Assembly: GCF_026914265.1 (NCBI RefSeq)
Contig: NC_069135.1
Coordinates: forward strand, 26,268,167-26,332,166
Reading direction: 5' to 3'
Length of the DNA stretch: 64,000 nt
DNA from: Mya arenaria
Lineage: Eukaryota; Mollusca; Bivalvia; Myida; Myidae
Made by a program: the position numbers and the translations under genes. This document shows, in pieces, positions 1 to 51,017 of this stretch. The notes beneath the pieces are model-generated. The model was not told where the DNA came from. It worked only from the letters and a program-made list of their open reading frames with translations, and made no database searches. Within the stretch, counting starts at the first letter, position 1, and each line of letters opens with the position of its first letter.

Positions 1-344
1 TAATAAGAAGTTTGTCAATTCTTTCAATCTAGTAGTACTAAACGACTTATTGAGTACATGTGGGCAGTAAATCAATCATGGTGTACCCAATTGTTTCATT
101 TTAAAGTTTTAAGTAGATTGAATGATAAAGAGCTTTTCACCTAAAATGGATCTGGTTGCATTCAGTAACTGTTAATGTGGTTTCCATTTTGCTTTTATCA
201 TTTATGAAGGTTCCCTGTATAACTTTTATATTGTTATATTTTTGGTCTCTTTGTGCAAAAACTTCCACACTGGCCATAACTCGAGAACTGTTCATGAAAT
301 GTTGTTCACTTTTTTACTGAGACAATAGGCACATACATGCAGGG

Positions 345-655
345 TTTAAACTAGAGAGTAATGGGAGGGTGCTGCACCCTGTCCTTTTTTGGAAGCACCG
401 CTCTGCCCTCATGCAGACCGGAATGTGCACCCTCCTGCCTTCAAAAAATTGAATGCTTTAGTTAATCAAATGATTCTTTTGTTTTGTTGAAAACTTGAAA
501 TATGATTATGAAACCTTATATTACTTCAAATGCGCACAATTTCTTACCTTTTCTATGAAATTCATAATGCTTTAATTATTCACTGTCCAATACAATTTGT
601 CACTCAGCACCCTGTCCCTTTTCTGCAACACCCTGTCCTTTCTAAAACCTGGCTA
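345..655. mobile_element. Copy of the 'caccctgtcctttt' element, diverged
   Basis: Holds GGGAGGGTGCTGCACCCTGT at the left and CACCCTGTCCTTTCTAAAAC at the right, in the same order as the element at 57,045-57,369. It lies upstream of BCAP31 copy A. Confidence 0.45.
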
Positions 656-924
656 AAACCATATTTATGTCATTGTGTATATTACAAAGCCCAAAAAACT
701 TGTTAAATAAGTTTTAATAACATGTGAGCATTAGTTTTTGCTCAGTGCTGCTTTTTACAGCCAGTTATTTTTTTTTTTGGAATTATTATGACCGCCTGTG
801 CCTTGCAAACTGGGGAAAAAAGAGTTGACTTTAGGAAAAAAACGAATTCATGCCAAAATAGCTAATATAATGGTAAATATACATGTTCTAACTTTTTTAT
901 TCATCCATTTTGCTGTGAAAGATT

Positions 925-1008
925 GAAGCTGCACTTTCAACGATTGAATGTTTTGACAACTTTTTATTTTTTGTCTTGGAATGAACCAATTTTTGGGAAT
1001 AATGGACT
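925..1008 (+). mobile_element. MITE of the AAAGCTGCACTC family, short remnant
   Basis: Reads GAAGCTGCACTTTCAACGAT, then TTTTGACAACTTTTTATTTT and GGAATGAACCAATTTTTG, i.e. only the left third of the family. It lies upstream of the first coding exon of BCAP31 copy A. Confidence 0.45.
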
Positions 1009-1204
1009 TTTTTTCGCAAGGGGAAACAGCCTTTAGAAGGCAGTATATTGCACCAAAAAAACTGTGAGCTATGGATGTGTATTATGCCGACACTCAACGG
1101 ATATATGCAAGGCATTGCTCACCACTCATAATGCAATTCCTTCCTCAATTTAATTACTTCCTTGTCTGAAATTGAATATTCACTTTGTTTTCAGAAAAAA
1201 AGCC

Positions 1205-4200
1205 ATGACATTGCAGTGGTCCTTTATAGCGGTGTTTCTTTACGGGGAGATCGGGCTTATAACTATACTTCTCCTACCCTTTATATCAGCATCAAGGTAT
1301 TTACTTTTTACTGTTTGTATTGCTTTGAAAAGTGTAAATGTGTTGACATTTCAATAACTCATTTCATGAAATAGCAAATTTGGCATTATCATATATATAA
1401 GTCTGCTTGGGTGTCAGGTAATGGGTTTGGTTTAAAATTCATTGTGATGGAATTGAATTATCTCAAATGTTTTGAACATTTTGTGGTTTTATAAACAATT
1501 TGGCATCTACATGTAACCAGCATGTTTTACATCAAATATCTTCAGATCTAGAATTCCAGTTCAATTTTATATGAATGTGTTTCAAATATATTTTAACAAT
1601 CAAATAAACTATTTTTATACTGATTTATACAACTATTGACTTTGAAATAGATATTATCACTACACAGTCATAATGATTTGAATCATACAATTGTTGATAA
1701 GGAGGGGTCACATTTTGTTTTTGCATTTGCCATGTTTAATATAGAAAACCAGCCAGTACCCAATTTTGACAGAATGAATCTTACAATGTAATCATGTTAT
1801 CAGCTTGTCTGTCTGTAAGATTGTGCTGGGTAGCATCTTTCAACATTTGCTGTTTAACTTGAGCATAGCTGAAATACTATTTAAGTTATTCAAATGACAA
1901 AAGCCATAACTCTGACTTTAATAGTTATGAGTTATGCCCCTTGTTAGACTGAATGAAGAAGATCGAATAGAAGGCCAGGGCTTTTCTTATCATAACAGTA
2001 TTACTTGTATTAAAATCATTTCTTGACTGCTGTATCACAGTTGTGTATGTACTTTTACAGATGGCAGAAAATCTTTCGCTCGAGTATCATACAGAAGTTT
2101 GCTAAGTTTTCCCACATCTATTTCAATGTCTTCATAGTGATTCTACTCCTCTTGTTTATGGGTAAGATATATCATTTTAAGAAGTTAAAATGGAATTCAT
2201 GCATTCATAATTCAGGGAAACATTGCAGAAGAAAAATGAAGTTTTATAGTTTGAGTTAGGCACTAAGTATGAAGTTTCATAGTTTGAGTTAGGAACTAAG
2301 CATGTTTATATAGGTTCATTTTAGATATATTTAATCTGGCCCCATTCTCTAAAAAAAGTTTTATTCTCCTATGACAGTTAAAATTTCTCCCTAGGGATAA
2401 ACACTTTCAAAGGGTCCCTAAATACAATTATACCGTATATCTTCACAGTCATCGATATTAGCCTTTTGGATCAACCAGCCCGAATTATTATACTATTGCC
2501 TGTCTTCAAATTTTTGAACAAGCCTTGCTATAAAAAATTCACAATTTGAGCAAGCCCGAAAGACATTTTACCAGTGCAGGGCTTGTGGGCTTGTGCTAAT
2601 TTCGACCACTGTCTACAAGTTTATACAATTTCATAAACAGTCATGATCATAGACTTGGAACAACATGCCAGAATTCTTACATTAATACTGGGCTTGACAC
2701 ATTGAAGGAATCTGCTATAAAAAAATCAGAAAAAAACATTTTATCACACAGAGCTTGCAGACTTGTGTTTGTTTCGACCACTCAGCCTTGTAAAAATGTG
2801 ACATTTATCAATATGTTATCAATTTCCAGATGCCATTAGAGAGGTGAGAAAGTATGCGGGTCCGACCTCCGAAGTGGACCTCAAGCACAATCCGGACCAG
2901 GAAAATCTCGCTCATATGAGACTGTTCAGGGCGCAGAGAAACCTCTACATTGCTGGATTCGCCCTGTTTGGTTGGTTGTGAGTAGTCTTTCAATTGCAAT
3001 TTATACTTTTGTAAGAGAAGATATTTTCTATTTTTGGTGGAGATGGTGTTGTGCAAAACCACTCAAGATATTCAAATGAAACTTGATACACATGTTGCCA
3101 AAGGCAACCCCATAACTCTTGATTAAATAATAATTGAGAAACCGGTGCTCAACTGGAAAAAAAGTGTTAACAGGAAGGAGTTATTGTTCTTGTTTTTTTT
3201 GCCTTTAAATCTGTCTTCTAAAACAAGGCTATCTATAGATGTGTTCCATATTAGTCATAACATCTATGGTTCTTTTTCACCTTCAGCCACAAGAGTTTAA
3301 TTGACAAGAACTGAACCCTTTTGTCTGTTTATTGAGGTTTGCACACTATTGTCAAACCATGATGTTGTAGGTGTCATTCAGGAAACTTGAACCTAGGCTG
3401 TTACTCAAGAACCATATATTATAAGAGATATATATTCACTGGGCCGGGGTGACAGGATATACTTTTGCTTTACAATAAATGTTATAATTCACTATATGCT
3501 CATTTGCAGCAACATCTTTCATTCAGGCTAAAACTTTGTTTGCACTGAAGTAATGAATATTGGCAACTTCTAGCTGTTTAAACACTGTTTGATAGACTTA
3601 TTTTTATAAATACTTTCTCATTGAACATGTGTATTAAACAAAATAAGCGACCAGTCAATTGTTTAATTCTTTCAACAATAGATTTTAGTAAAAAAATAAA
3701 TATATGTATATGAATATGATATCAATTTTCACAGCCTTTATAAATTTTGATTACCACTTTGCTTAATAAAAGAACAGTGTCGTTCACTTTGCCGGGTGAT
3801 ATGTTAAAAAGATGTTTTAATTTTGGTTAAAGATATTTCCATATTTGAACATATAAGTGTTAAAAGTATTAACTATATAGTTCTATACTTACAGCATTAT
3901 TCGTCGCCTGGTGACGTTGCTCTCCCTTCAAGCCCAGATGCAAGCCCAGTCAGAGGCAAGCCAGAAACAAGCCCAAAGTGCTTCGGATGCTGCCAAAAAA
4001 CTAATGGAGGAGAAGGATAATATCAAAAACATGGTAAGGTTACACACACCTAATTATTACCCCCCCCCCCCCCCCTGCTTTGCCACTGTCTCTTGTCAGT
4101 TGGTAGACCAAACCTTGCCTGATTGATAAATAGAGAACTATTTGGCCCATGGCCCTCAAACTTAGTTGGGAGGTTTATATGTTGACCAGTGAGATAATTC

Positions 4201-6781
4201 CTATTGTTTCAAAAGTCATGGTTGGGTGTCCTTGGACTTGAGCTTGTCCAATTGATTACTCTAGTATGCTTGGTCAACCGATCCTAAAACTTGGCAGAGA
4301 GGTTATCATTACCAGCAGATGATTGACTTTCATGACAGTAGGTCAAAATTAACAGTCACAGTCACCTTGGACATAGAACTCTTGTCTTGTTGCTAACTGG
4401 AGTATGCTTTAGGCATACTGTCCTCAAACTTAGTAGGGAGGCTCTTACTTGTAAAGTGTTTGAAGCAATTGATTGAAACTTAATTCATAGATAGATAGCA
4501 TGTGTACAATGTAGTTCTGCACCCTGCAAGAATTATAATTTTCAGCATTTTATTTCAGAGTTATGTCCCCTTGTTCATTTTTAATTTAGGAATTTTTTGT
4601 CTGGCACTTGCAAAACCTACTGAAAGGAAATTGATGGGAACTTGGAATAAAGATAGTTCTGATCTTAAGTTGTTCATCTTGCAAGAATGATTCTGCTTAG
4701 GCACTTTATTGCAGAGTTATCTACCTTTGTTGAATATTTATAATGCAAACTTTGTCCAAACATTTACTAAAAAACTACTTGAAGAAATTCGAATTCATTA
4801 AAACTTCAATACCATCTCTCTTCAATTATTAATAGAAAATTTAAAGTTGCTTGCAATTGCATTTTTTAAAACTAATTTTAATTGTTGTTTATTCATATCA
4901 AAGTGCTTGAAGACTTACTATTAGTATTAGCCTTAAGGTGTTAAAGCTGCACAGATTGAACGTTTTGACAACTTTTTTATTTTTTGTCTTGGAACGAGCC
5001 AATTTTTGCGAAAATCCATGGAAACCAGTTATATAAGACTGCTGACAAAAAATAGATCGCAGATTTTTAAATTTAAGTTCAAAAATTTGATGTTTTATGC
5101 ATTTTTCTTTAACCGTTACTTTAAGCCATAAAACATTAATTTTTTACCGGAAATATGAAAATCTATGATCTGATTTTTTGGAAACAATCTTATATCATTG
5201 TTTTGCAGTTATTTACGCAAAAATATTCAGGATTCATTTTGAAATCATGATTGAGAGCTTTTAGCTTCAGACTTGTTGTATAGTAATGTTTATTTGCTCA
5301 CACATTTGCATCAAAAAAAGTACCTTGAAATGACTTTAAATACAGTTTTTAAAAGGGGTTTTAGCCCCTTTTCTCTGCTTAGGGTAAAAAATCCTTCATT
5401 GCTATTTTCCTGGACAATTATCAGTTGTTAAAACTCCTGATGAAGGATAATTGAACTGCTGATGTACATGCAGGGTGTTTCATAATATCTGCCCCACTTG
5501 CACTTTTATCAAGTACTTGTTATACAGACAAGAATTAAACTTTGTATCCTCATTTTACCCTTTCCAGGCAAGAAGTGATGACACTGATGTGGATGCCATT
5601 AAGAGGGAAAAAGATCTCGCAACACAGCTAGATGAAACCAAACTAGAGCTCAAGAAACTTAAAAAAGGTCAGTGAAGCCCCTTTTGTGAACTAATTTCTG
5701 AAAATTTAAGCTAGTCAGTTTTCAAACATGAAAAGTTGAAATATTTGTCATCGAGTTAGTCTTGTCATCTGTGGTATCCTGTAAAAATAAGTCAGTAAAG
5801 GGAGATAATTATTGGCCTCTTTTGTGAACTATGTGCTAAAGTTTTTAGCTAGTCTGTTTTCAAACTAAAAAATGAAATATTTGTCATAGAGTAAGTCTTG
5901 TCTTTTGTGGCATCCTGCAAAGTCAGTAAGGGAGATAATTATTGGCCCCTTTTGTAAACTTAGGCTGAAGTTTTTAGCAGATCTGTTTTCAGAAAATGAT
6001 CGTTACTGTTGTATTCTGTTATCCTAGAAAATCCCCTTGGAATCCCCTTGGCCTATGTGAATAAAAAAATCAATATGATCACACAAGACTTTCTGTGACA
6101 ATATTCGCATGTTAAGCATAGTCCATAACCTTTTCTTAAATTACTACATTATGCCCCTTGATTGTTTTAAGGTAGTCACAAAAATGTTAAATCTTGCAGA
6201 AACTGAATTACATTTGTATACCACAACATACTTAAAACTGTTTTTAGTCTAATATGAAGTCCCTCTTTCAGAACTCGAGATGAAGCAAACAGACTTTGAA
6301 GCACTGAAGAAGCAGTCAGAGGGTACGAACAAGGAGTATGACAGACTGTTGAATGAATATTCCAAGGCTCAGGTTGGTACTAATACATGGAAGTTCTGTT
6401 TCTAGGTGATTTACAGAGGGTCTCAAAGAGGACTCTCGACTTGGAGAATCTCATTTCTTTTAAGTGTTTGAAACATTATATTACATACTGTTTGCAAAAA
6501 ATAACAGAGGGAGTAGAAATATGAAGATGTTAATTTCTAAAATTTAATGTATAATTTTATGCTTTTAAAGTGATGTCATTCAAGATCAAATCAATATTAT
6601 AAGTGTTATCAATAATGTTTTTCTGGTAAGTTATGGAAATATTTCTTATATTATAGATTTCATCATATTTTTGGGGCTAGTTAATTCCATGACTTTTGTG
6701 TACATATTATGATAAAAATGATTGTCTTTGTTTCAGGAAAAATTGGAGTCACCAGAAGACGGAAGCAAGAAATCAAATTAG
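1205..6781 (+). CDS. BCAP31: BCAP31-like ER membrane protein, copy A (7 coding exons)
   Basis: ER-resident transmembrane chaperone/export factor of the BAP31 family, which sorts membrane proteins leaving the ER and takes part in ER-mitochondria signalling. Coding exons by reading frame and GT/AG sites: 1205-1296, 2061-2161, 2830-2977, 3895-4033, 5568-5667, 6272-6372, 6737-6781. Phases agree throughout and give about 241 residues (human 246). Order: N-terminal MTLQWSFIAVFLYGEIG and three hydrophobic segments (about residues 6-27, 44-65, 100-125). The signature loop REVRKYAGP and RAQRNLYIAGFALFGWL sit between segments 2 and 3. A long charged coiled coil ends in EGTNKEYDRLLNEYSKAQ, as in vertebrate BAP31. 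The C-terminus is KKSN, a KKXX ER-retrieval signal. The start matches the family N-terminus; the acceptor at 1194 implies an upstream noncoding exon not located here. AATAAA lies at 7066-7071. A paralogue lies at 31,811-38,394. BAP29 is the only close alternative. Confidence 0.93.
4136..4465. repeat. About 2.5 units of a ~134-bp dispersed repeat
   Basis: Related segments 'cctcaaacttagttgggagg', 'cctaaaacttggcagagagg' and 'cctcaaacttagtagggagg' recur near 4,152, 4,285 and 4,422 in intron 4 of BCAP31 copy A. Confidence 0.5.
4941..5225 (+). mobile_element. MITE of the AAAGCTGCACTC family, right end missing
   Basis: Begins TTAAAGCTGCACAGATTGAA and follows the family through CCAATTTTTGCGAAAATCC and the ATCGCAGATTTTT inverted segments. 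It fades after TTTACGCAAAAATATTC near 5,225. It lies in intron 4 of BCAP31 copy A. Confidence 0.6.
5668..6050 (+). repeat. Three ~127-bp tandem units in intron 5 of BCAP31 copy A
   Basis: Units start at 5,668, 5,791 and 5,922, each with GTCAGT, then CCCCTTTTGTGAACT and AAATATTTGTCATAGAGTAA. The first GTCAGT is the real exon-5 donor; the others are copies of it. Copy B has only one unit (37,312-37,445). Confidence 0.75.
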
Positions 6782-9298
6782 ATTCAAATTAAAGTTAATG
6801 AAATTGTGCAATCTGTGTGAAAGTGTGCGTGCCAATAGGCTTTGTACCATACTTGATTGAAAAACCTGTATTGCGCACAAAATTGTGGCCATTATAATGA
6901 ATGATATTTGTATAAAAAACACTAGAACAGAAACAATTGGATAATTTGCAATGAGATAACTTGTAAGAATATAGATAGCTTTTATTTGTTAAGTCAAACT
7001 ATTTTGTTTGCATTTTTATGTTAACATCATACATGTATAACAGAATATTCAGTAATTCTATTTAAAATAAATGGGGGATAGGGGTAGGGGATTTGGGTAA
7101 GGGGGAGTATTCTGTTCTAGAGTACTGTGTTGTTTTTCGGGGGGGGGGGGGGTGTCCAGCTCTACTTTAATATTTTTTGTTAATCAAATCCACATCTTTG
7201 TTGGAGATTGACTTTATGTACATATGTAGCGTATTTCCAAAATTTTGTTTCAATTGTATTCCTTTTCATCTTGTGTGTCATTTTGAAATATTTAGTCACA
7301 AAGTCAAGCTAGTTTCCTCTTTCGGCTGTCCCTTACTTAATATTCATATAATCCTTTTCATGTTATGATATGTTTACTACTCAATTATGTTCATTAAATA
7401 TGCTCTGATTGATTCTGTTCAACATCTAAACTTACTTTATACTTGTATAAGAGGATTCTACTGGCCAAGGTGATCAACTCTCACATGGCAGGGTTTAGGC
7501 TGACAAACCACCTGGAGTGATTTTCATTATTGGTTCAAAATGGATCTTGAATATTGACTTAGTTTCATACTGAATACCAGGCTAGGGATAGATCTCTTGG
7601 TCTCTTCAAGCAGGGCACAAGTTTTCAAGATGGTGGATCAAATCTAGGCTCTGTAAGCAAAAAAGAGCCTTGAGAATGAATTAAGTATAATTTGAAATTC
7701 TGACGTGAAAAGTTTTAGCTTCTTTATACCATGGCCTCTCCGAAGAGACATCTCATTAATACTGGGATGTGATTTGTCCGCGGATTCGCGGAATTCCGCG
7801 GATCTAATGGCCCCAGGCCCCCCCCCCAAAAAAAAAAAAAAAAATTTTTTTTTTTTTTGCTGATTAAAAAAGATACTATTGTGCTTTTGGTTGTTAGAGT
7901 TGATATCCCAGTTTGCTGGGAAAAGTCAGAAGAACCCTCAAAAGAGCTTCTAAAAAGCCAGTTTTTCTTCTATGACAGTCGTCAGTGTGCTTTTGACCCC
8001 AAAAGTGCCCCGAGAACCCATAGCCGAAATGGTTTCAGCCCTCCAGTTGCCAGGTCAATCACATCCCTGTTAATATCATTCACCACTAAAGACAAAGAAG
8101 CTACTATACACTGAGCATTTGTTTGACGCGATTTGACATACGGTTATTTTTTTGTTCATTGGAAAACCCTGATGTGCATTAGGGTATACACACGCGCTTA
8201 AAATGTTTTGATTGTATATTTAAACCTAGGAACGATTATGATGGTGGGTGCTTTTTAATGGTTAAGGCTGGCAGTGAGAATTCTTGTTGTGTTGGCTTAC
8301 TCTCTAAATATAATAACAAATTTATAAAATTATTTCCGGTGTCATGTTATGACCTGAATAAAACTACGTTACTTTATGTTGTGTATATCTTGAAAACATT
8401 ATATTTTCATTACCGGCTACTCGTATGAATTTCCCTGTTGTCGATGCCTGGTAACCCGGTGGAACCTCGGTGTGATTTGTAAGGGTATGAAGTGAAGAGA
8501 AAAGATATGTTTATAATGTAAACCATGATATGGAGAAGGATGTCAAAAGTGATGGACATTAGTTTAAACTTAAATTGTTAAAAAATTTGAAAGCGACTGT
8601 GAAACAAGCTTTTACAATATAACTCTGTAAAAGATATTATATTATTAGCACGAGATTCTACGCGAAAGTAAGGTTTTGTGTCATCATTTACAGTACACAT
8701 AGCCTTCTTTGGCGTTTAAGTAACCACTGAATGTATAGCGCTACTTTGTGCAATCTTAGAGCCTACATGCATGAGTCGCTCGTTACTTAGGACTACGTCA
8801 CTGTCTGACGTATTTATAACTAACCAACGTGAGGCGGGATGGGGGTGGGGGTGGATGGGGTTCGGGTCCAACAAACCATACCAAAACCCTATACACGTGA
8901 TGGATCCATGGTTTGGCGTAAGCGAGAGTGTAGTTTAGAATTGCAATTTTGGACATGAGCCCCCGGAAAACATAGGAATGAGGGTAGATTGTTTATCTAA
9001 AAAAATATCTGAAATTGTGCATTCTTGTGTTTTATATTAACATCGTTTTCTTATATGGGAATAAAATGTCTTGGATGAATAATCTGTCTTTTTATGAGAG
9101 TGGACGTCCTTAAACCTGTTAGTGCTGTAGCATCAATTACATCTAATATATATAACGTCACTGATTTTTAAAGTGAACAAATCACTTACAACAAATGGTA
9201 CCAATCATTATGTATACCTGAAATTACCTTATCGTTACATTAACAAATTACACAAGAACGTTCGACAATTCGTTGTGTAGCCTGGAGTGGGTTTGTTA

Positions 9299-9612
9299 TG
9301 CACCAGTCAATTGTAACTACGCCCCCCCCCCCCCAGGTCCGGGGATAGCCGGGGAAATGGGCCGTGTTTTTACCTTCCACGTGGCCCCGCAGTGCCGGGT
9401 GAATGCGGTGGTTTTGTCTTCTAGCCAAATATAGCGGGGAATGGGCCTTACCTAGAGTCCCTTGGGTGCGGGGGCATTTGGCGGGGTTTTTACTAGCAGT
9501 TCGTCTCCGCAGGGCGGGGACTTTGCCCGGGCTTGGCTGGACCGAAAGTCAAAGTCCCCGCTATTCTCCGGACCTGGGGGGGGGGGGGGCGTGGTTACAA
9601 TTGACTGGTGCA
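9299..9612. mobile_element. PIF/Harbinger-like MITE, 314 bp, TTA target duplication
   Basis: Long inverted ends: TGCACCAGTCAATTGTAACT at the left and, read from the right, TGCACCAGTCAATTGTAACC, each followed by a poly-C/poly-G run. It is flanked by TTA at 9296-9298 and 9613-9615. The 3-bp TTA/TAA target duplication is typical of PIF/Harbinger. The GC-rich interior has no real gene. A second full copy lies at 27,623-27,948, and a remnant end (TTACTGGTGCAT) near 26,810-26,835. Confidence 0.75.
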
Positions 9613-9917
9613 TTACAGTGATAGGCCTTGTACATTGTTTTTTATTTTAGAATTTTGTGTCCGAACTTATTGTTTTTTTTGCTAAGTAAATATATTTTAA
9701 AATGTAGCATATTAAATTCAGAACAGAATATATTTTATCTCTAATGCAAATCCATATGACCTAGCTATCATTATTATAAGTTTTAATCACGTACCACACA
9801 ATCACATGACCATATACGTAGGCAGGCAGATTTCTTGTATTTACTTCCTTGTTTGGAAGAGGGCGTAAGAGATTTAGAAGCATTTTGTTTTAATTTAATC
9901 CTGGGGGTTACAGGAAT

Positions 9918-11988
9918 ATGGCTTCTAATTTCGAGTCCTCCATTCACAAGGGCGGTGATTTCATCCACGATTTTGCCTGTTCTCCTTGTGAAGAAGATGG
10001 ACTGAACACGGAAGCTCAACATTTCTGTTCACAGTGCACGAAATATTACTGCAATATCTGCGTCACAAAACATAATGGCTTGTACAAGAGACACTCGGTG
10101 CTCGGGCGGAAGGACGTAAAGAAATGGGCGCCGGCCCAAGGGACGGTGGACGCTCTGGAAAGATGTGAGAGACACCCTGGTAAAGCATTGGAGCTCGTGT
10201 GTGGTGACCATGACCAACTGTGCTGTCATGTGTGCGTCGCCGTCAATCACAGGTAGGTTTCAGGAGTTCATGTTATATGTAAGAATAAAATGGTGAAGCG
10301 TTTGTATCATTAGTAGACACTCCGATCGTTTAGGTTTCATTAAGGTAAAACGTTATCTTCTGATATCTATGATCACCTCTGTGTTCGGTATTACCAAGTT
10401 TATATCGAGTGTGTTTTAGCCTGAATAAACATCAACTGATCTATAAGCTACTCGTTATTTTTTCTGTGTTTCAATTAATTAATTGTTATATTTCACTTCA
10501 CATTAACACGTTTATTTTTACTATAGTATACATTAAATACAAAATTAATGCGATAAAAAAAGTGTACATGCATATCAGTTTTAATCACAAAAGAATATGT
10601 TTTCCAGTTCTATTTGTCATAAATTTACAGACCATGTTCTTCGATACTGCACATCACCGATGTCGCAAAGGGTATCAGCAAAGATCCAGAGTTTCATCAA
10701 TTACAACAAAAGGTAGCTGACCTCAGAAAACAGCTAGAATGTATGAAAAACGCCAGAAAGAAAAATGGAGTCTCATTGAGGAAGACCCGGGTTGCTATTG
10801 TTGACGAAGTAAAAATAATCCGTAAAAAAATTAACGACATTCTTGACAGGATGGAGAAAACAACAGTAACTGAACTAGACGGTCTGATAGCGAAACACGA
10901 AATGTCCATAAAGAAGGATATTGACTTCTGCACACAAATGCATGAAGATCTGGAGAGTTTGATGGATGGGTGTGATAACAAACTGTCCTCAGGCGAAACC
11001 GTCTTATATGTTGGATTTAAAAAATGTGGAGAAAAATTGAAGGAAGCAAGAGAACATCTACAGAGAATGTCAACAGTTGAATCGTACAATATAACATATC
11101 AGCCAGACAAAGCAATAGAGAAATTGTTCTCTCTACAACGTTTTGGAGTCTCGACTGATTCCGTTCCTGTCGCAGCACAATTCCACCCAGAACATGTGTT
11201 CCAAGCGCTGGGGTACAAGGAATACAATGTGAAGATGAGTTCAGACAAAGTTAATTGTGATATTTTGGGCGTATGTGAACTACCTGATGGAGGGGTTGTT
11301 ATCACAGACTGGAACAACTGTAAAGTAAAACTCCTGGACCAGAAGTACAGGGTTGTCGACCATTGTGATGTACCCGAGCATCCATATGACGTGTGCCACA
11401 TTGGCGGGAATGAGGTTGCCGTTTGTGTTAACAAACGTGAACTTAGACGTGAACTCCATTTCATTAACATAACAAAAGGGAAACTTGTGACTACGAGAAA
11501 GTTACGTTTCACACATCGTTGCTCAGTACGGAAACAACCTTTACATTTCATCAGATACCGCTTTATACGTCTACACGATGACGGGAAAGCAGATAAAGAA
11601 GCTGTTCGAGGACAAGTCCGGTGATGAAAAGTTGGCAAACATTGCAATCAGTAACGACGGGAAGGTTATCTACATCACAAACTACTCGAACAATCAACTA
11701 ATCACCCTGGACAACCTCGGTAACAAGCTGGCCACATTCACTGATCCTGAATTAAGGGGACCTAACGGAGTACAAGTGACGCCAGCTGGACACATTCTTG
11801 TCTGCTGCTCGGACTCAAACACAGTGCTGCAGGTTGACAATGACAGAAAGAAAGAGAGAAAGGTTACCACACTGGCCTGGGAAGAATGCGGAGTGTACTT
11901 ACCGAGATCTCTTCTCTTCAGCAGCCGTACTTCCTCTATGATTGTCGGTGGAAAGACAGACTTGCTTCTTATTATCAAGCTGCAATGA
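9918..11988 (+). pseudogene. RING-less B-box / coiled-coil / beta-propeller gene, copy A, frame broken by an 11-nt deletion
   Basis: TRIM-like protein without a RING, of the kind expanded in bivalves; members with RING are ubiquitin ligases or innate receptors, but the role here is unknown. Exon 1 is 9918-10252 and holds two B-box zinc fingers: a first with CSPC, FCSQC and CNICVTKH, and a second with CERH, CGDHDQLC and CHVC. The donor is gtaggt at 10253. Exon 2 starts at 10631 after TTTACAG (phase 2). It encodes a coiled coil (about 10690-11080), then an NHL-like propeller with repeated VxELPDGGVVITDW-type blades. Compared with copy B, 11 nt are missing near 11,515-11,530, so frame 0 runs to 11,624 while the propeller continues in another frame (11,578-11,988; blade motif ISNDGKVIYITNY). 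AATAAA is at 12,065-12,070. This may be a recent pseudogene, an allele, or an assembly error; otherwise the gene is complete. Confidence 0.82.
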
Positions 11989-12071
11989 AACAGATTAACA
12001 TATGTTACATCTTATTCTGCAGTGTGATTAACATAAACTTAAGTCGTATAAACAATCAATGTTCAATAAAT

Positions 12072-14670: not shown

Positions 14671-14696
14671 ATGCATAAAATATTTTTGGCGTTGAT

Positions 14697-14757: not shown

Positions 14758-14759
14758 AG

Positions 14760-27948: not shown

Positions 27949-27999
27949 TAATTGCCTAATTGTCTTATCAGATCTCCGATCTGAGTATCCTGCTGTGCA

Positions 28000-39785: not shown

Positions 39786-39930
39786 GAAGCTACACTATGC
39801 ACTATTTTGAAATGCTTTGCCATAGTTATCATTTTGTTCAAAAATCCGACGTATATGAGGGTTTAATTACGTGCTTAAGAATTGTTTTATTCATTGTATA
39901 ATAGTTTTTGATCCTCGGAAAGATCATGAT

Positions 39931-39990
39931 GGTGTGTGTGTGTGTGCGTGTGTGTGTGTGTGTGTGTGCATGCGTGCGTGCGTGTGTGTT
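39931..39990. repeat. TG dinucleotide microsatellite
   Basis: An interrupted TG/TGCG run that follows a segment homologous to copy A near 8,250, where no such run exists. Confidence 0.9.
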
Positions 39991-42900
39991 TCTTTTTGTT
40001 AAAATTGGCTGTGAGAATTATTCAGAGATTATTTTTGTGTTGGCTTACACTCTGAATGTATTTATATAAACTTCTTTGCCAGTTTCATGTTAGGACCTAA
40101 ATAGAATTACATTTATTTTTTATGTTGTGTATATCTTGTAAACCTGTGGATTTGTATACCTGTCTACATTTCGCAGTGCCTTTATTTTGTCAGAGCGGGT
40201 CAGTTAATTAGCGTCGAAATCAATGACGGGCCAGTTTAATATTGCCAATGATGTGAGGTGGAGGTAGCTACTGAAATTATGACGCACTGGTAACTTCATC
40301 ATCGACGTCTTTTATATCAGTCCTATATTCTCTTAGCAACAGCATTTATTAGGAGTCAACGCCTGCGTCAGTATCGACTCCATTGATGTCTCAGTTTCTT
40401 AGTTTTGACATTTAAGACAGGTCAGTAACTAAGCGCTGACGTATATGACCGTGATGGCGTGCACGTAACGTATCACCGACGTCCATTGCGCAGTAGTTAA
40501 TTTGTACTGATATAACTGAAGCGCCATCATCTTAGCAACGACGTCTATGACTTGAAAGCTGATGCCAATAATGTTATACTAACTGTATGGCCGACACTCA
40601 TGATGCACTGTTTTTCAGTGCCGAAGTTCGTTACATTTGTTCATAAAACATTAAGTCGTTGGCATTAACTCATGCGTAATCGACATTGAAGCAACCATAG
40701 CACCAACGAGCCATTCGGAACTCCTCGGCCATTTTTCATCGAAAACAGCCTCGTATGTACGCCGGTACATCGGTAAAAGCAGTTCGTAAAATATTTTTTT
40801 AATTAATTGTAGTGTATAAACGTGTATTTTGTATATCTTACTTTAAAATGATTGCCAGTGAAGTGAATTATTGCATAAATAATTAAGATTCCCAAGAGTA
40901 AAGTCATTTTGTTTAACTGCTAAATTGAAATTACTACGCAATTTACTTGCAGCGTAGTTAAAATGTAAAGATTTCTGACCTTGTAATACCTCCACATCCG
41001 GTGATGCTTTCGAATGAAAAAACCCGAGAAGGTCCGAATGCCAACGAGCATTACCCGGTTGATGCTTGCTAAAGCTACAACGTTAAGCTCGTTTTTTCTG
41101 ACAGTTGCTCGGTACCGACGTGTCTGGCATGTCATATACTAAATGTTTACATCCTTAAACAAGTGATGGCGTCTGTGTCGTTTCAGTTGTCGCATTCACA
41201 GTTACTTGGTCGCATTATACATAGCGTTGACGTTCAGTATGTGCAATCTAATATTGCAAACATTCATGAGTCGCTCTTTACTTGGATCGACGTCACCATC
41301 TAAGACGTATTATAACTTAGCGATAACGTGTAACTTAGCGTCTACTATTAATACACATGTTACTATATATAGTAACACATTTGTGCAGGGATTCTGCAAT
41401 TATTTGCATGACTCAGCGATTATTAGTTTTGCGGCCCGGGCCGATTATCGATTATCATTTTGGGGCCCGTAGAACATTAGCACGTGAATTCAATTTTGGT
41501 CTTCAAATCAAATTTGGCGACTGTATTATTATGTCTTAACTATATAATAACAATTCATTGATCTGCTTGAACAGATTAATTATTCAAATCCTAAAGGAAG
41601 ACAAAAGCGAAAACCGGAGTGGACTATTAGGGCGGCGTTTTTTTATTCAGCGTTTACATTCTAAAAACAAAACAAAGGAAGCGGCAAAATTGAATAAACT
41701 TGAACAACAACAACTGTACAAACATGTTGCCATATATTTTTTTTAATTTGTAGTGACGAATTAGACCGGCGGACTACCAGGCGCCTCCTTTTAAATTATC
41801 CGAACGACTGATCTATGCCATTATGCATAAATAATACGAGAATGCGTCAAAATATTATAGGTGGAAGGTTTCCGCAATCCCATATATCAGGGTCTCGTTT
41901 CAATAATATGTTAGGCTTGAGATCGTGAGCCCGTTTTGGGCGTAAACTGCGTTTATATAAAAGATCGTCAGAAAAATATATTTATATTATTATATTATTA
42001 GAAAGCTGGCAAGTTTTACAGGTCAAATTATGTCCATGTCAATTGTCATAGGTAACGTTGCTCAGATTATGACACGTTATTTAAGTATGGACATTATTCA
42101 GGCCCCTCACTGGGATTTCTATGTGTATTTAAGCACACAAAGTAAGGACCAACTTCGTTTCTGGGAAAATGAGTTGCCTTCGTTAAATTGTAGAAGACTC
42201 TTTGAAAGTCATTCTTGTTCAAAGATAGTTTACACTGATGCTTCGTCGTACGCGTACGGTGGTTACGAGGTTAGTACAGTTAACGGAGTAGCACACGGTG
42301 TTTGGTCACCTGACGAAATGTTGAAGTCCTCCACGTGGAGGGAGTTAATGGCTGTGTATAGAGTCCTGTTGTCATTGGTTCAAAATTTGAGGTTTCAGAG
42401 GGTAAAATGGTTTACGGACAACCAATCCGTTTCAAAAATTGTAGCTAATGGTTCAATGGTGCCTGATTTACAAGAAACCGCTTTAGATATTTATAGATAT
42501 TGCGCGTCAAATTCTATTATCGTAGAAATGGAATGGATTCCAAGGTCCGAAAACGACAAAGCTGATTATTTGTCAAAAATCGTAGATTACGATGATTGGG
42601 GTGTTTCGCAAGCAATAGTAGATATGGTTCAGAATAAATGGGGGAATCTTGAAGTAGATTGGTTTGCGTCTGATTTCAATGCAAAATTGCCTTGCTTCTA
42701 TACAAGATTTTGGAACAAAGGTTCCAGTGGCATAGATGCATTTACTGAGAATTGGTCTGGTAAATTTGGACTGTTCGTGCCACCAATTTGTATCCTTCCG
42801 AGAGTTATCAGGAAAATGATTTCTGACCATGTGTTTGGAGTTTTGATAGTTCCGTACTGGCCGTCTTCAAGCTTTTGGCCTTTATTATGTCCACTTGGGA

Positions 42901-43589
42901 CTTTTACAGATGCAGTGTTAGACTGGATGTATTTACCAACATCAAAGAGTTTTTACACAATTTGCAAAAACGGAAAAGGGTTATTTGGAAATAAGGATTT
43001 AAATTTCCAAATGTTGGCACTATTGGTTAAATTTTGATAGAAGGGAGTTAGATCATGTACTGATTTAGAGCAATTACAGTGCTTTATTATCTCCCTTTGC
43101 TCCACACAGATGCACGTAAAACATAATTACGTTAATTGCGTTACAACGTGCTCTCAAATAGTGGCATTTCCATTTTTAACCAGTCAATTTTGTTATGCAT
43201 TATATGATAATCACGAGTTTTTAATTCCTACAGCATATTATATATAGCCTTAGGGCATATTTGTACGTTTGTACGCTGATCAATGACAAATATAAAATGC
43301 TTGATAGTACATTTATTCGCTTTAAATGTTTCATTAGCCAGAAATTACTCTGTTGAAGTTTTAGAAGCAAATATTGTAAAATTTACACGTGAATTTAGGC
43401 AAACGTAACGCAAATTATGTTTTACGTGCGTTATAGGTCGATCGCTTTTACAATAGTCTGTGAGACATATGCACAGTTATAGAACATTTAGTTCTCACAA
43501 TAGTACCTAAAGTACATAAATTTCAGATAATGGTCTTGTAGACATAATTATTGCAATGAAGTAATGCATTTTCATATATGTAGGCTTGA

Positions 43590-43865
43590 CAGCCATTAGA
43601 ATAGTCAGCGAAAGAAACGCACGCATTTATGTATACAGGCTCGGCGGACATTAGAATAGCCAGTTAAAGTGATGTACGCATATATACGAAGGCCCGGCGG
43701 CCATTAGAATAGCCAGTTTTTTATGTGCTCATATAAATATGCAGGCCCGGCGGCCATTAGAATAGCCAGTTATGTGTTCATATAAATATGCAGGCTCTGC
43801 GGCCATAAGAATAGCCAGTACAAGTTATGTACCCACATACATATGCAGGCCAGGCAGCCTTGAGA
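43590..43865. repeat. Minisatellite of about 55-60 bp, 5 units
   Basis: The core GGCCCGGCGGCCATTAGAAT, then AGCCAGTT and CATATAAATATGCA, recurs from 43,590 to 43,860. It lies inside the DIRS-type fossil upstream of the nested LINE. Confidence 0.8.
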
Positions 43866-44064
43866 ACAGTCTTAGAATTTATGAAAAACTCCATGTGTTG
43901 TACTTATGTACTACGTTCATGTTTTATGATTATGCAACAAAGGTTGAAAGTGTTCAAATAGCTTTAATAACTAGTTATATTCACAATATATAAGTTTTGT
44001 TGTTTAATAGATTTAATAGTATCATTATAAAGTTAACATGTTAATATGTTCATTTTGCAAATAA

Positions 44065-45930
44065 AAGATACATGTTGATCAGGTAGAAGGTTATTTAAAT
44101 GATAAACAACTTCTCTACAGCTACCAATCCGGTTTTAGGCGTGGCTTCTCCACAGACATATGTCTTACCCATTTATCTGATTACATTCGTTTTAAGATGG
44201 ATGAAGGTAAAATGGTTGGAATGGTTCTACTTGACCTTCAGAAGGCCTTCGATACGGTCAATCATGGTATTTTACTGATGAAACTTGAGGCTATAGGTCT
44301 CCATGCTGACGCTGTTAGATGGTTTCAATCCTATCTCTCAGATCGCCATCAGATTGCCGACGTATCTGGCACATTGTCCTCCGAGGCCACTGTCACATGT
44401 GGTGTCCCTCAGAGTTCCATCCTTGGCCCTCTTCTATTTCTAATTTATGTTAATGATATGGCCGCTGTGGTTAACAATAAAATATTACTCTATGCTGATG
44501 ATACGGGCATCTTAGTAGCTGGTAAAAGCATATCAGAAATTCAATCCATTCTTTCAAGTGACCTGGAACTCATTAGTGAGTGGCTAGTGGACAACAAACT
44601 GTCCCTACACCTTGGCAAGACAGAATCAGTATTGTTTGGTTCAAAGCCCAAACTTAAGTCTAATCCCCAGCTTAATGTGTCTTGTAATGGGGTGCCAATT
44701 ACACCATCAAGTTTTGTCAAGTACCTTGGTGCTAAAATAGATCAGAGTCTGGCTGGTGAGTCCATAGCCAAGTCAGTTATTAGTAAAGCAAACTCCAGGT
44801 TGAAGTTCTTATACAGAAAAAGTAAATTCTTAAATATGCACACTAGAAAACTCTTGGTTATGTCCCTTATACAGTGCCACTATGACTATGCTTGTTCCTT
44901 TTGGTATCCAGGTCTTACCCAGTCACTTAAAAATAAACTCCAGACTACCCAAAATAAGATGATCAGGTTTGTTTTAAAGATGGATAACATGTCTCATGTT
45001 GGTCAAGAGCAATTTCTAAGTTTAGGTTGGCTACCCGTGTAAAAAAGGGTAGAGCAAATTATGCTTTGTCATGTCCATAAGATAAAGAATGGCCTTGCCC
45101 CTGAGTATCTTGGTGAACATTTTAAACCGCTAAGTGATGTGCACGGTTGCTGTACAAGGTCTAATAAGGTAGCTCAGCCAGTGTTTGATCATTTTGCGGA
45201 TAGTTTTACCTTTGTTAACACTGGTCGTTTCTCCAAGCCTAAGGTTGGCAGTTTTGGGGCAAAGACATTCACAAATAATGGCATAAATTTGTGGAATAGT
45301 ATTCCTCAAAATATAAGGAATATTTCAAAACCTAACCATTTTAAGTCTGCCATCAAACAGTACCTATTGCAGTCTTAAAGATCATTTTAAATTTTTATAT
45401 TTAGCTATCATAATAATTTCATTTTTATTAGCATGTACGGTTCTTATTCATACGTATTTCTTTATATCTTATCATATCTCATTGTGATATTAATATTTCT
45501 TTACAGTATTGCCATTTTGAATGGCATTTTTTATTCCATACATTATGATCTCAAGTCTTCTGTTACAATACATAGGCCATGAATGCAGTGTAATAGGCTA
45601 TGAATGCAGAGTAATAATGTTAATGAGTTCTGTGATATAATTTATGCAATTAATTATCTGTGATATAAGATTATAACTTGTCTAGATTTATTATCCTTGT
45701 ATTTAACAATTTTGCTAAACTACATGACTATTCCATGGTTACTGCCACCAATTTTTCAAGGACCACAATGGAAATAAGTGAAAATCATTTTTCTCTTTTT
45801 TGTGTCATCCTTGGTATTGTGTGTGCATTTCATGGTTTCTATTGTCTATGCATTGATAATGATATGTTATAATTTGTCTGCATAATGACGTGCCATGTAA
45901 TGTTCATGTCTTTTTACCGAATAAACCTAC
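44065..45930 (+). mobile_element. 5'-truncated non-LTR (LINE) retrotransposon nested in the DIRS-type fossil
   Basis: One frame reads from about 44,065 to 45,378 as a reverse transcriptase and its C-terminal domain. It begins in the fingers (SYQSGFRRGFSTD), then LLDLQKAFDTVNH, GVPQSSILGPLLFLIYVNDM (one residue away from the usual GVPQGS), the catalytic LLYADDTGIL, and a thumb/C-terminal part with LWNSIPQNIRN. A single TAA at about 45,040 interrupts the frame after LGWLPV; the following codons continue the same protein (KRVEQIMLCHVHKIKNG). No endonuclease domain is present because the 5' end is missing. AT-rich 3' UTR-like sequence runs to about 45,930. The clade is not resolved; the box spacing suggests the Jockey/CR1/L2 assemblage. 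The element was inserted in sense orientation relative to its host element. Confidence 0.85.
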
Positions 45931-47551
45931 TACATTTAATTTAAAAAGATTTTTACATCTATTTTTCCAGATTCACAAACACGAGATAGACGAGCTGCCG
46001 GAGGTCTTGGCGGACAAGGTGGCCCTTCTCCCTCAGATACTGCAAAAGTCAAGAGCCGACAGCACGTGCAAGAACTATAACAGTCGTTTCAAAGGTGGAA
46101 AGTTTGGGCTCTTTCAAACGGTTTCGGGATTAGGGACATTTTGCCCGCTAGGGCTTTTCCGGTGGCTATCTATCTAACTTCGTTAATACAGACTGCTTCT
46201 ACAGCAAAACCTATTATATCAGCTTTCTATAGTTTAAAATGGATGCACGAAATTAATGGTTTTGTTTCCCCTACTGATTCAAAACTTGTTATTAATGTGT
46301 TAGAATCAGCAAAACGTATAAATTCTAGGTCTACGATTAAGAAGGAACCTATATATGTTAGTATCCTACAAAAAATGTATGATAGTCTTTATGGTGAATG
46401 TAACCTAATGTCACAGAGAATGATTTGTGCATGTTTAATAGCCTTTTCTGTTTTTTTAAGAAGTGCTGAACTGTTAAAGATAAAGAGAAGTGATATTATT
46501 ATAAGTACAGCATATATGGAAATATTTATAGAATCTAGTAAAACTGATCAATATAGAGACGGCGCATGGATAGTTATAGCGCGAACTGGAACTTTGTTGT
46601 GCCCTGTTAAGAATTTGGAAAAGTATATTCAATGGGCTGGATTTTCTGATGAATCTTACATATTTTGTAACTTGAGTGCTACTAAAACAGGATTTAAAGT
46701 CAGAAGTGTTAACAAGCCTATGTCTTATTCAACTCTTAGAGATTTGTTCATAAAAACTTTCAAACCTTTAGTTACAGACGTTCGTAAATATGGCTTTCAT
46801 TCACTTCGTTCTGGCGGGGCTACGGCTGCCGCAAACTAAGGTGTAAAAGACCGAATGTTTAAGAGACATGGACGTTGGGCGAGTGAAAAAGCGAAAGACG
46901 GTTACGTAAAAGATAGTTTAGAACAAAGTTTGGTTGTTTCACAGTGCTTGGGTTTATAAATGATGAGTTCCGAATTAGTTTTGTTTTTTATAAAGTCGTT
47001 TTCCCGTTCTTTATAATTCGGTTGATTGGCCATGACGCTTACAACAAATTAAACATTTGTATACTATACTTGTTGTTTTTCGTCTTAGTACAAGATCGAA
47101 TTAGTAAGATAGAGTGAGTAAGGATTGATTCTAGGGGAATATAATTTTCTACGTTTGATTGAAAAGAATTAGGAGAAAATTGTTTCCCCTTGTATCGTTC
47201 CGAAACGATACGCCTGGGGGCGCTATGATTTCGCGCTCTATCGAGCACGTGTTTACTGTGCAATATTGATTGATTCATTCAGCGCATGGTCATCAAGCTG
47301 TGTACAAGCATGTCCGACGTTTTTTTATTTCAAAAAACTTAACGGGTTCATCCATATCAAACATCGGAACTCATCATTATATTCTTGAAATCAGTATACA
47401 TTATGATATACAAAATTTTGTCTTTATGTTTTACAAAAGTTTTATAAGTGAACTAACTGATTTCACTGCTAATTTAGGAGTGAAAATATCAACTTTAAGA
47501 ACTACTTCTAAAATCAATTGTAGTTGACTTCCCCTTGATCAAAACTTTACT

Positions 47552-47839
47552 TTTAAAGCTGCACTCTCACAGATTGAAGGTTTTGACAACTTTTCTATTT
47601 TTTTGTCTTGGAACGAGCCAGTTTTTGCAAAAATCCATGGAAACCAGTTATATAAGACTGTTGTCAAAAAAAAATTTCGCAGATTTTTATATTAAGTTCA
47701 AAAATTGATGTTTCATGCATTTTTCCTAAACCGTTAGTAACGGTTTGTCAGCAATCTTATCATTGGTTTGCAGATATTTACGCAAAAAGTTGCTCTTTCT
47801 AAATTTTAAAAATGGTATATCTGTGAGTGCAGCTTTAAA
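47552..47839 (+). mobile_element. MITE of the AAAGCTGCACTC family, complete copy with internal loss
   Basis: Starts TTTTAAAGCTGCACTCTCAC and ends CTGTGAGTGCAGCTTTAAA. The internal inverted segments are partly missing compared with the copy at 35.9 kb. It lies between the DIRS-type fossil and B-box copy B. Confidence 0.65.
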
Positions 47840-49141
47840 CCAGAAAATGTTGGCAAAAAAATAAATAAAATAAAATTGAATTTTAAAAAAGTTTGCAAAG
47901 GTTAGGATATATACTGAAAATAGAAAAATGGTAATCCTTTTTTTTTCTAAACGCTTTCGTCAACTTTGACGCGGAATGGTCGAACATTTGCTTTCATACA
48001 AAAAAATTACAGACGAAAACAACTGCTCGAACAAAAATATGATTTTATATTATCGTTCTCATCGTTTTGAACTGTTTGTCGTTGTTATATGTTATACGAA
48101 CTTCCCGGAATATTAACACAACCATTAGCATATTAAGTGATGATTTGTTTTACCGTACCCACGCCTCCCAAGTCAACAACCTAGCGTGCTCTTCCCTTTT
48201 TGCCTTGGAAACGACACGTCTTCAAGCAAACCAGACTCTAGATTTGACCATGACGGATGACTGAATACCCATGTTTAATGAAATGAACTTTTAAATCTAA
48301 GACCCATGTTTAAATCCCATGTTTTGCCGCATTTATTTTTACTTACATGTCGGACCTTTCAAAATTTTCATTCAAGAAATGGCCGCGTATTAATTCGGTA
48401 TGTATACATGTTATGTCTAATTTAAAATTGCTTTCGTGCATTAACTATTATCAGTTGGAAAATATATGCATTAATAAAAGTAAATTAAATAATGTTTGTT
48501 AAAAGTTTGCAGTAAATACGAGTTGAAAATTAACTATAAAAAGAAAAAAAAACGAGAACTTTTTGTCCAAGATATATTCCCGGATATTTGAATAAAAATG
48601 TATATTTGGAAAAATAATTTGTTTTGGGGGTGAAGCAGGGTACGCCCCCGCCCTCCGCTCCCCCCACCCCTCAAGCTGTAGCATTCATGAAAACTGATCA
48701 ATATAAAGTAATTGATTTTAAAGTGAACTAATCACGTACAGCAATTGATATCACTCATTAAGTATTTATAACTGAAACGTGTTTATATGACAAAAATAGA
48801 ACATCATTACATTACCAAACAACACTAGTACCGTTCTACAATTCGTTGAGTATGGTTGGGTATAATTAAGTTATTGGTCTTAAACAGAGTTCGAGTATAT
48901 GTTGAGAAATTAATTTTTGAACATATGATTATAAGAACCTGTATTTAGAAATATAATACAATATGACTTTATCTCCAAAGCAAATCCATATGTCCTAGCT
49001 ATCATTATCAAGTTTCAATCACATGACAATCAAATGACCATAGACGTAGGCCGGTATATTGTATTAACTTCCTTGTGTGGAAGAGGGCGGACGACATTTC
49101 AGATACTTTCGTTTTAATTTAACCCTGGAGGTTGCAGGAAT

Positions 49142-51017
49142 ATGGCTTCTAATTTCAGATCCTCCATTCACAGGGGCGGTGATTACATCCACGATTTCGC
49201 CTGTTCTCCTTATGAAGAAGATGGACTGAACACTGAGGCTCAACATTTTTGTTCAAAGTGCACAACGTATTACTGCGACAACTGTGTTACAAAACATAAT
49301 GTCTTATACAAGAGACACTCGGTGCTCGATAGGAATGACGTTATGAAATGGAAGACGGCCATAGGGACTGTGGACGCTCTGGAACGATGTGAGAGACACT
49401 CTGGTAAAGCATTGGAGCTCGTGTGTGGTGACCATGACCAGCTGTGCTGTCATGTGTGCGTCGCCGTTGACCACAGGTATGCTTAAAGGACTTCAGGTTA
49501 TATGTAAGAATAAATTATTGAAGCGTTTGTATCAATAATAGACATCTTAATTGATTGTGATTCAGTAAGGGCAACGGGCAAACGTTACCGTCTGTTTATA
49601 CGATTACTACCGTAGACTAGTAAGTACAATGTATTACAATATCATGTTGAGTGTATTTTAGCCTGAATTAACATCAAACAATTTATCTATATACGAGCTA
49701 CTGTTATTTGTTTTAATTAGTTCAATAGTGTATACCACATAAACACGTTTATTTTTTCTGTGGTAGATGTATTTATAAATGTTAGACAAAGCAAATGTGA
49801 TACAAAATAAATTGTACTTGCATTTTAATTTTAATCACCGTAGAACATATTTTATTCCATTGTATTTGTCATTTATTTCCAGGCTCTGTTCTTCGATACA
49901 GCACATTCCAGATGTTGCAAAGGGCATCTGCAAAGATCCAATGTTTACTCAACTTTCACAAAAGGTAGCTGATCTCAGAAAGCAATTATAAGATAGGAAA
50001 GCAATCAGAAAGGAAAATGCAGTATCACTAAGGAAGACTCGAGGTGCTATTGTTGATGAAATAAAGACAACCCGTAAAAAGATTACCGACATTCTTGACA
50101 GGATGGAGAAGAAAACTGTTCAAGAACTAGCCGATCTGATAGCGAAACACGAATCTTCCATAAAGAAAGATATTGACCTCTGCACACAAATGCATGAAGA
50201 TCTGAAGAGCTTGATGGATGTGATCGAAAACAAAAAATCCTCAGGTGAACCCGCCTTGTACATTGGGTTTAGGAAATGTGGAGACAAAATTAATGAAGCG
50301 CAAGAGCTTGTACGGAGATTAACAGCAGTCGAAACGTGCACTGTTGCATATCAGCCAGACAAAGCAATAGAAGAATGGTTTACCTCTTTACAAAGTTTTG
50401 GAGTGTCAACTGAATCTGTTTCTGTTGCAGAACAATTCCAACCAGAACATGTGTTCCAAGTGCTGGGGTTCAAGAAGTACAATGTGAAGATGCGTTCAGA
50501 TGAAGATGATTGTGATATCATGGGTGTATGTGAACTGCCTGATGGACATGTTGTTATCACTGATGGTAACAACTGTTAAGTAAAACTCCTGGACAAGGAG
50601 TACAGGGTTGTCGACCACTGTGATCTGCCCGAGTATCCATGGGATTTGTGCCACATTGGCGGCAATGAAGTGGCCGTTTGTGTTAATTACGCTGTAAATA
50701 ATTGTGGTGATGAGGATGCTGGTGATGATGATAATGGTGTTGCTGCTGGTGATGATAATGATGTTGATATACACGAACTGCATTTCATTAATGGTACAAA
50801 AGGAAAACTTGTGACTACAAGAAAATTAGGTTTCACCCACGATTGTTACGCCGCAGCTCACCGTTGGAACAACCTTTACATCTCATCAGGCACCGAGCTT
50901 TACGTTTACACGATGTCAGGACAGCTGATAGCTAAGCTTTATGAGGACAACAGCGCGAGTGACACGTTGGAGAGATATGCCTTCAGTAACGACGGGAACA
51001 CCATCTACATCACAAAC
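49142..51017 (+). pseudogene. B-box / coiled-coil / propeller gene, copy B, truncated pseudogene
   Basis: Paralogue of the gene at 9,918. Exon 1 (49142-49476, donor gtatgc) keeps both B-boxes (FCSKC, CDNCVTKH; CERH, CGDHDQLC, CHVC). Exon 2 starts at 49,883 after TTTCCAG. In frame, it meets TAA at 49,989-49,991, where copy A has GAA, and TAA at 50,577-50,579, where copy A has AAA. The frame then continues through propeller blades up to YITN at 51,017, where similarity to copy A stops abruptly and low-complexity TATATA follows. The distal propeller and 3' end are missing. Between 50,690 and 50,770 there is an acidic Gly/Asp-rich insert (DDDNGVAAGDDND) from a GATGAT-type expansion that copy A lacks. 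The pseudogene lies just upstream of TRMU and marks the right edge of the segmental duplication. Confidence 0.85.

Follow-up and report, generated by a model that had tools for sequence, protein, structure and literature searches.

Tandem duplication of a BCAP31 and B-box gene pair in Mya arenaria with unequal constraint on the two BCAP31 copies

Members of the BAP31 family have a role in sorting at the endoplasmic reticulum (ER; PMC3742741), and human p20 BAP31, which comprises amino acids 1 to 164 (PMC10052827), is a pro-apoptotic fragment that normally needs caspase-8 cleavage. Here we describe two tandem copies of a BCAP31 gene and of a neighboring B-box/NHL-like gene in a 64,000-nucleotide stretch of the soft-shell clam Mya arenaria, referred to as the window (contig C14, 26,268,167 to 26,332,166; assembly G000, 1.216 Gb in 18 contigs). 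The copies in the window are called A and B, and their partners in a second, far set on the same contig are called A' and B'; feature coordinates are those of the window. Compared with the BCAP31/BAP31 family, copy A matches the Bap31 and Bap31_Bap29_C domains nearly end to end and carries a KKXX tail, whereas copy B is frameshifted ahead of the coiled-coil domain and lacks the tail, its reading frame ending after 164 residues, the length of human p20 BAP31. Among the papers listed by a literature search, none linked BCAP31/BAP31 with bivalves.

The second gene resembles the B-box/NHL-like family of C14, which is TRIM-like with no RING found, in having a B-box zinc finger followed by an NHL match, and differs in that three of the four copies at the locus are broken; a literature search, made partly by title, found no work on a B-box/NHL/TRIM expansion of this kind in bivalves among the papers listed. 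The far set recalls retained haplotigs, as a doubled block about 98% alike lies inverted on the same contig and is unevenly diverged, and further equal-score gene pairs occur in the assembly. According to PMC10663159, the M. arenaria assembly was made with FALCON-Unzip on account of high heterozygosity, and purge_haplotigs was applied since allelic contigs had been called separately; the same paper gives 10.7 million variants that every cancer sample carried and the reference lacked, with 8.1 million of these occurring in healthy clams as well. By our arithmetic, these counts over 1.22 Gb correspond to a variant density of 0.7 to 0.9%.

Two collinear copies of the gene pair

Self-comparison of the window gave a single collinear series of matches between about 1 to 12 kb and about 31 to 51 kb. 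A unit of about 12.4 kb containing BCAP31 and the B-box/NHL-like gene occurs twice, with order and strand alike (Table 1); its limits were placed by a more sensitive search, on the left at 36 and 30,382 and on the right of block A at 12,411, the latter through B'. Exons, introns, and intergenic DNA can all be aligned between A and B, the collinear pieces being mostly 69 to 79% identical and the main stretch of the B-box gene 79% over 1,754 columns. Two collinear, direct copies that include the noncoding DNA confirm the tandem duplication, as the sequence-only reading had proposed from the shared genes, order, orientation, introns, and intergenic DNA. The 18-kb spacer at 12.4 to 30.4 kb was compared with the DNA that follows B and with that preceding A, and nothing beyond repeat-like matches was found; the spacer thus lies outside the duplicated unit, which spans about 12.4 kb and holds two genes. 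Block B is enlarged, again as proposed, by a 5.45-kb stretch missing from B', by a 29-bp minisatellite at 39,402 to 39,781, and in BCAP31 intron 1, which is 2,178 bp in B versus 764 bp in A.

BCAP31-A is intact, with seven exons bounded by GT-AG ends and 241 encoded residues. PF05529 (Bap31) matches residues 1 to 135 (1.9e-43, 148.1 bits), PF18035 (Bap31_Bap29_C; coiled-coil/vDED) matches residues 187 to 240 (56.9 bits), and the protein aligns with human BAP31 chains in the PDB (8xwx, 4jzl). The C-terminus is KKSN in both A and A', which we take to be a KKXX ER-retrieval tail. In BCAP31-B, the Bap31 match is 133.6 bits over residues 1 to 134. Exon lengths had been said to be shared between the copies, and this holds for exons 1, 2, 3, 5, and 6 (92, 101, 148, 100, and 101) but not for exon 4 (139 in A versus 129 in B) or exon 7 (45 versus 39). 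Although the GT-AG splice sites of B and B' are intact, losses of 9 and 1 nt in exon 4 shift the frame in both; with canonical splicing, both stop after 164 residues, and the frame through the two domains is not open. BCAP31-B is without the KKXX tail, its homologous frame ending in GVSKT. Because the frameshift is common to B and B', it is older than their split. A genome-wide profile search with PF05529 (19/19 candidates scored) gave eight exon matches, which belong to four gene copies only: A, B, and a minus-strand pair at C14 27.58 to 27.61 Mb. As all matches fall within these four copies, no intact BCAP31 was found besides A and its partner A'.

Constraint on BCAP31 and repeated breakage of the B-box gene

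Substitutions in BCAP31 were counted by the Nei-Gojobori method, with the A-B comparison covering 222 codons and pooling both branches. Between A and B, there are 36.5 synonymous and 63.5 nonsynonymous differences, giving a synonymous divergence (dS) of 0.30 and a nonsynonymous-to-synonymous ratio (dN/dS) of 0.44 (95% confidence interval (CI) 0.28-0.69), or 0.31 (CI 0.13-0.82) over exons 5 and 6. A and A' differ by six synonymous and three nonsynonymous changes, B and B' by one synonymous and six nonsynonymous changes, and the near and far introns differ at 114/4793 sites in A and at 68/5756 sites in B. At its own intron rate, BCAP31-A should have accumulated 12.7 nonsynonymous changes, against the three observed (p = 0.0013), while for BCAP31-B the expectation is 6.1 against six observed (p = 0.59). 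As A, and not B, lies below the intron-rate expectation, BCAP31-A is constrained and BCAP31-B is near neutral. The A-B divergence, these counts, and the shared frameshift support the view that the duplication is old and that one BCAP31 is constrained while the other drifts.

Several observations weigh against the loss of BCAP31-B. The direct contrast of nonsynonymous and synonymous counts between A and B is borderline (Fisher two-sided p = 0.06), and exons 1 and 2 show zero changes between B and B', so that weak constraint is possible there. Furthermore, an acceptor 5 nt further on would restore the frame in B and B', so BCAP31-B may still be translated. It is nevertheless quite unlikely that BCAP31-B is a working paralogue in which this downstream AG in exon 5 is used to give a 234-residue protein without KKXX. 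B and B' each have intact splice sites and a shifted frame that runs to its end without a stop, and dN/dS between A and B is below 1 over exons 5 and 6; yet the latter can be explained by constraint on the A lineage alone, the B-B' nonsynonymous changes are as many as expected at the intron rate, and splicing generally uses the first AG as its acceptor. We regard it as very improbable that BCAP31-B would instead make a p20-like product of 164 residues directly from the gene, consisting of the membrane part with no vDED. The frameshift common to B and B', the kept splice sites, and the unchanged exons 1 and 2 would fit such a product, whereas BCAP31-B overall changes at the intron rate, and the early stop would be expected to trigger mRNA decay.

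The B-box gene has taken a different course. It carries a B-box zinc finger (PF00643; 1.2e-7, 32.2 bits) with an NHL match after it; a RING finger ahead of the B-box was absent from the Pfam matches of exon 1, and an unseen upstream exon is possible. In the window, an 11-bp deletion after 11,512, not present in A', disrupts the frame of gene A, and gene B has stops at 49,989 to 49,991 and 50,577 to 50,579 and has lost its 3' end. The B' gene has lost the start codon and has a stop at codon 135 and deletions of 37 and 2 bp, which leaves A' as the only one of the four copies that reads through (567 codons). The lesions of A, B, and B' are all different, and none was seen in a second copy; the B-box gene was therefore broken more than once. 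The asymmetric decay claimed for the gene pair accordingly stands for BCAP31, where A is intact and B frameshifted, but not for the B-box gene, which is broken in block A of the window too. Near-far dN/dS ratios for the B-box gene (0.49 for A and 0.57 for B, with wide CIs) do not separate A from B and are uninformative on asymmetry. A first B-B' value of 0.69 was dropped because the alignment ran past the truncation of B; the 0.57 is from codons 1 to 460. At the truncation, 61 bp in the window stand against 4.9 kb in the far copy, of which at least the first ~0.6 kb matches block A (the 3' end of the B-box gene) and is therefore ancestral; the remainder could be an insertion on the far side.

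A search for the B-box/NHL-like family (77/2589 candidates scored) gave at least 85 matches, and among the matches listed, which do not include copies B and B' themselves, all are on C14, at 26.2 to 27.6, 37.5 to 41.3, and 50.3 to 58.0 Mb. The nearest long match outside the two arms, among those listed, is 67% identical. With dozens of close relatives on C14, loss of this one gene is unsurprising. The subfamily is thus confined, among the matches listed, to one of the 17 large contigs, and B-box domains in general gave 126 matches over many contigs (150/2581 candidates scored). A further B-box gene lies left of the window at C14 26,240,304 to 26,242,415 (minus strand), with its mirror at 27,640,796 to 27,642,826 (plus strand); it is 61% identical over the long exon and 78% over exon 1.

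The inverted far set

The window recurs inverted at C14 27.54 to 27.65 Mb along with its flanks (40 kb on the left, 9 kb on the right), broken by insertions and deletions. This far set lies 1.3 Mb off on the same contig, is ~98% alike, and holds both tandem copies in the same tandem order. Across the 87.0 kb of columns aligned between the near and far sets, the chain differs by 2.3%; this figure includes some tandem-repeat pieces that are misaligned, and a few short segments inside tandem arrays are 15 to 20% different. In the 37 clean 2-kb windows (only segments longer than 1.5 kb and windows with more than 1500 aligned bases were used), divergence has a mean of 1.7%, a median of 1.5%, a range of 0.25 to 6.8%, and a dispersion index of 21.9.

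The mirror arrangement was sampled with eleven main probes cut from twenty samples; further, outer probes were blurred by repeats (40/2461 candidates scored). Five of the eleven had a clear mirror partner (26.000/27.885, 26.150/27.730, 26.190/27.689, 26.580/27.166, and 26.640/27.107 Mb). The positions 25.894/27.990 Mb are also mirrored, but other copies of a repeated unit match better; the probe at 25.80 Mb hits a repeated unit, one copy of which is at 27.974 Mb, and the probe at 26.44 Mb has far-region matches of 89 to 90% only, with many elsewhere. Probes at 25.00, 26.05, 26.10, and 26.76 Mb had no partner at the expected place (40/1730 and 40/1645 candidates scored), which is weak evidence since so few candidates were scored. 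Five probes at 26.67 to 26.74 Mb found only themselves and local repeats (40/44 candidates scored). A palindrome center sought at 26.93 to 26.95 Mb was not found within 20 kb, so the arms do not meet there. The probes suggest imperfect arms of roughly 0.75 to 0.9 Mb and a spacer of roughly 0.4 Mb. TRMU matched in the window and far set only (six matches, 13/13 candidates scored). At C14 25.06 to 25.93 Mb, a probe recurs eight times at a spacing of ~92 to 163 kb and 94 to 99% identity, a large array of repeated segments.

Equal-score domain matches, defined by exactly equal score and range of the domain match, were counted across the assembly. The 59 bHLH matches (141/141 candidates scored) contain eight same-contig equal-score pairs separated by over 100 kb and one pair at a shorter distance, and no pair spans two contigs. 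The homeodomain search gave 150 matches (150/349 candidates scored), with 30 same-contig pair-rows separated by over 100 kb, in both orientations, and 31 by less; such rows are not independent events, as gene clusters pair one gene with several. When contig labels were shuffled, the observed same-contig number was reached in 0/2000 trials for each domain. Genes that adjoin one another pair up as consistent blocks: three homeobox genes are mirrored on C5 (29.908/32.000, 30.058/31.849, and 30.154/31.752 Mb), and a homeobox gene and two bHLH genes lie in one inverted block on C2. Equal-score pairs of homeobox and bHLH genes occur on C5 (29.9-32.0 Mb), C2 (29.9-32.9 Mb), C12 (42.1-43.6 and 55.1/69.3 Mb), C3 (65.9-67.0 Mb), and others, and these direct or inverted gene blocks on C5, C2, C12, and C3 are probably retained haplotypes. 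Pairs of this kind are visible by eye also among the 126 B-box matches. The equal-score pairs and the methods of the assembly's makers lead us to read the assembly as having kept second haplotypes in places, which is a reading and not a proof.

Could A and B themselves be alternative haplotypes of a single locus that the assembly set next to each other, which would have made the duplication an artifact? The high heterozygosity of the species and the signs of unpurged haplotypes elsewhere in the assembly give some ground for asking, but the idea is next to impossible here. A and B are mostly 69 to 79% alike, with a dS of 0.30 for BCAP31 and 0.43 for the B-box gene, and because they are far more diverged than the near-far pairs, they are paralogues. 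Moreover, each has an inverted partner ~98% alike, and since A' and B' are both in the far set with the tandem order kept, the haplotype explanation for A and B is contradicted.

For the far set itself, the likeliest reading is that it represents the second haplotype of this locus, which escaped purging and was scaffolded next to the first. A true inverted segmental duplication, with arms of ~0.75 to 0.9 Mb and a spacer of ~0.4 Mb, would give the haploid genome four copies of BCAP31 and as many of this B-box gene, and is unlikely. It would account for the mirror partners at five sampled probe sites and for the absence of any N in 284 kb around the window, the far set, and the center (134 + 130 kb; 20 kb), and segments at C14 25.06 to 25.93 Mb reach eight copies, more than two haplotypes give. 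On the other hand, equal-score same-contig pairs of unrelated developmental genes occur on many contigs in both orientations, which fits an assembly-wide property, and BCAP31 and TRMU were found doubled only here. The divergence of the far set is also very uneven and allele-like, as for a retained haplotig; a real palindrome undergoing gene conversion would diverge unevenly too and could mimic this. Other points likewise tell against a retained haplotype. At 1.7%, the arms differ on average by about double the variant density of the species, although this much is possible for haplotypes that an assembler kept apart. Equal domain scores are no proof of near-identical DNA, 12 homeodomain equal-score pairs are between contigs, and 5 of the 30 same-contig homeodomain rows are 22 to 48 Mb apart and may be due to chance.

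Neighboring features and the order of losses

Features of the window are collected in Table 1. Immediately left of block B, an open frame with a possible start at 29,872 to 30,111 has no Pfam match and is possibly an orphan exon. An inverted repeat pair of 0.7 kb (51,639-52,334 and 54,262-54,945, 78% alike) encloses a reverse-transcriptase-like open reading frame (ORF) at 52,341 to 53,003 and the next ORF. Tandem arrays of 76-bp units (17,317-18,474) and of 147-bp units (58,566-59,263, within the TRMU gene span) both match the far arm too.

Table 1. Features of the window, in window coordinates
Feature	Position	Strand	Basis or remark
Duplicated block A (5' flank, BCAP31-A, intergenic DNA, B-box gene A)	36..12411	+	outermost collinear matches to B and B'
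BCAP31-A, 7 exons, intact, 241 aa	1205..6781	+	Pfam Bap31 and Bap31_Bap29_C; PDB human BAP31 chains
BCAP31-A exons	1205-1296, 2061-2161, 2830-2977, 3895-4033, 5568-5667, 6272-6372, 6737-6781	+	
B-box gene A (exon 1 9918-10252, exon 2 10631-11988)	9918..11988	+	zf-B_box and NHL matches
Duplicated block B	30382..51019	+	collinear matches to block A
BCAP31-B, 7 exons, frameshift at exon 4/5 join	31811..38394	+	Pfam Bap31 133.6 bits, exons 1-4
BCAP31-B exons	31811-31902, 34081-34181, 34703-34850, 36365-36493, 37212-37311, 37706-37806, 38356-38394	+	
BCAP31-B exon 4, 9-nt and 1-nt losses versus A, common to B'	36365..36493	+	
Block B stretch without counterpart in B'	41986..47437	+	alignment break versus far set
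RNase H-like stop-to-stop ORF, within or at edge of 41986..47437 stretch	41961-43037		Pfam RVT_3 21.3 bits, cut-off 21.6
Reverse transcriptase stop-to-stop ORF, in 41986..47437 stretch	44065-45042		Pfam RVT_1 86.6 bits, above cut-off
Tyrosine-recombinase-like stop-to-stop ORF, in 41986..47437 stretch	46081-46839		Pfam Phage_integrase 23.3 bits, cut-off 27.1
B-box gene B remnant (exon 1 49142-49476, exon 2 from 49883; 3' end lost)	49142..51019	+	
Junction	51019..51080	.	61 bp versus 4.9 kb in far copy
TRMU/MnmA-like tRNA 2-thiouridylase gene, neighbor outside tandem unit	55164..60619	+	four exon pieces tested

Taken together, we propose that a tandem duplication copied the ~12.4-kb unit of BCAP31 and the neighboring B-box/NHL-like gene. 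BCAP31-A would have kept the ancestral role, which by analogy with the family would be that of a three-pass ER membrane protein with a coiled-coil tail and a KKXX retrieval signal. BCAP31-B has lost its KKXX tail and, where exons 4 and 5 join, its reading frame; it now changes at the intron rate and would be a pseudogene or at most give a truncated transcript. The B-box gene would be dispensable and in the course of being lost by separate mutations, and the inverted far set would be the other haplotype, unpurged and scaffolded beside the first. Of this account, the duplication, the lesions, and the rates are observed, while the origin of the duplication, the roles of the proteins, and the haplotype status of the far set are inferred. 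We give this explanation as a whole a probability of about 0.78.

The finding is ordinary biology together with a likely assembly artifact. Until doubled haplotypes have been excluded by read depth, copy numbers of genes and tallies of "recent duplicates" within a chromosome of this assembly look unsafe. As for the genes, the locus shows the ordinary fate of duplicates, with one copy kept and one lost, and the far set puts the losses in order: the frame of BCAP31-B went before B and B' parted, and the lesions of the B-box gene came afterward, separately.

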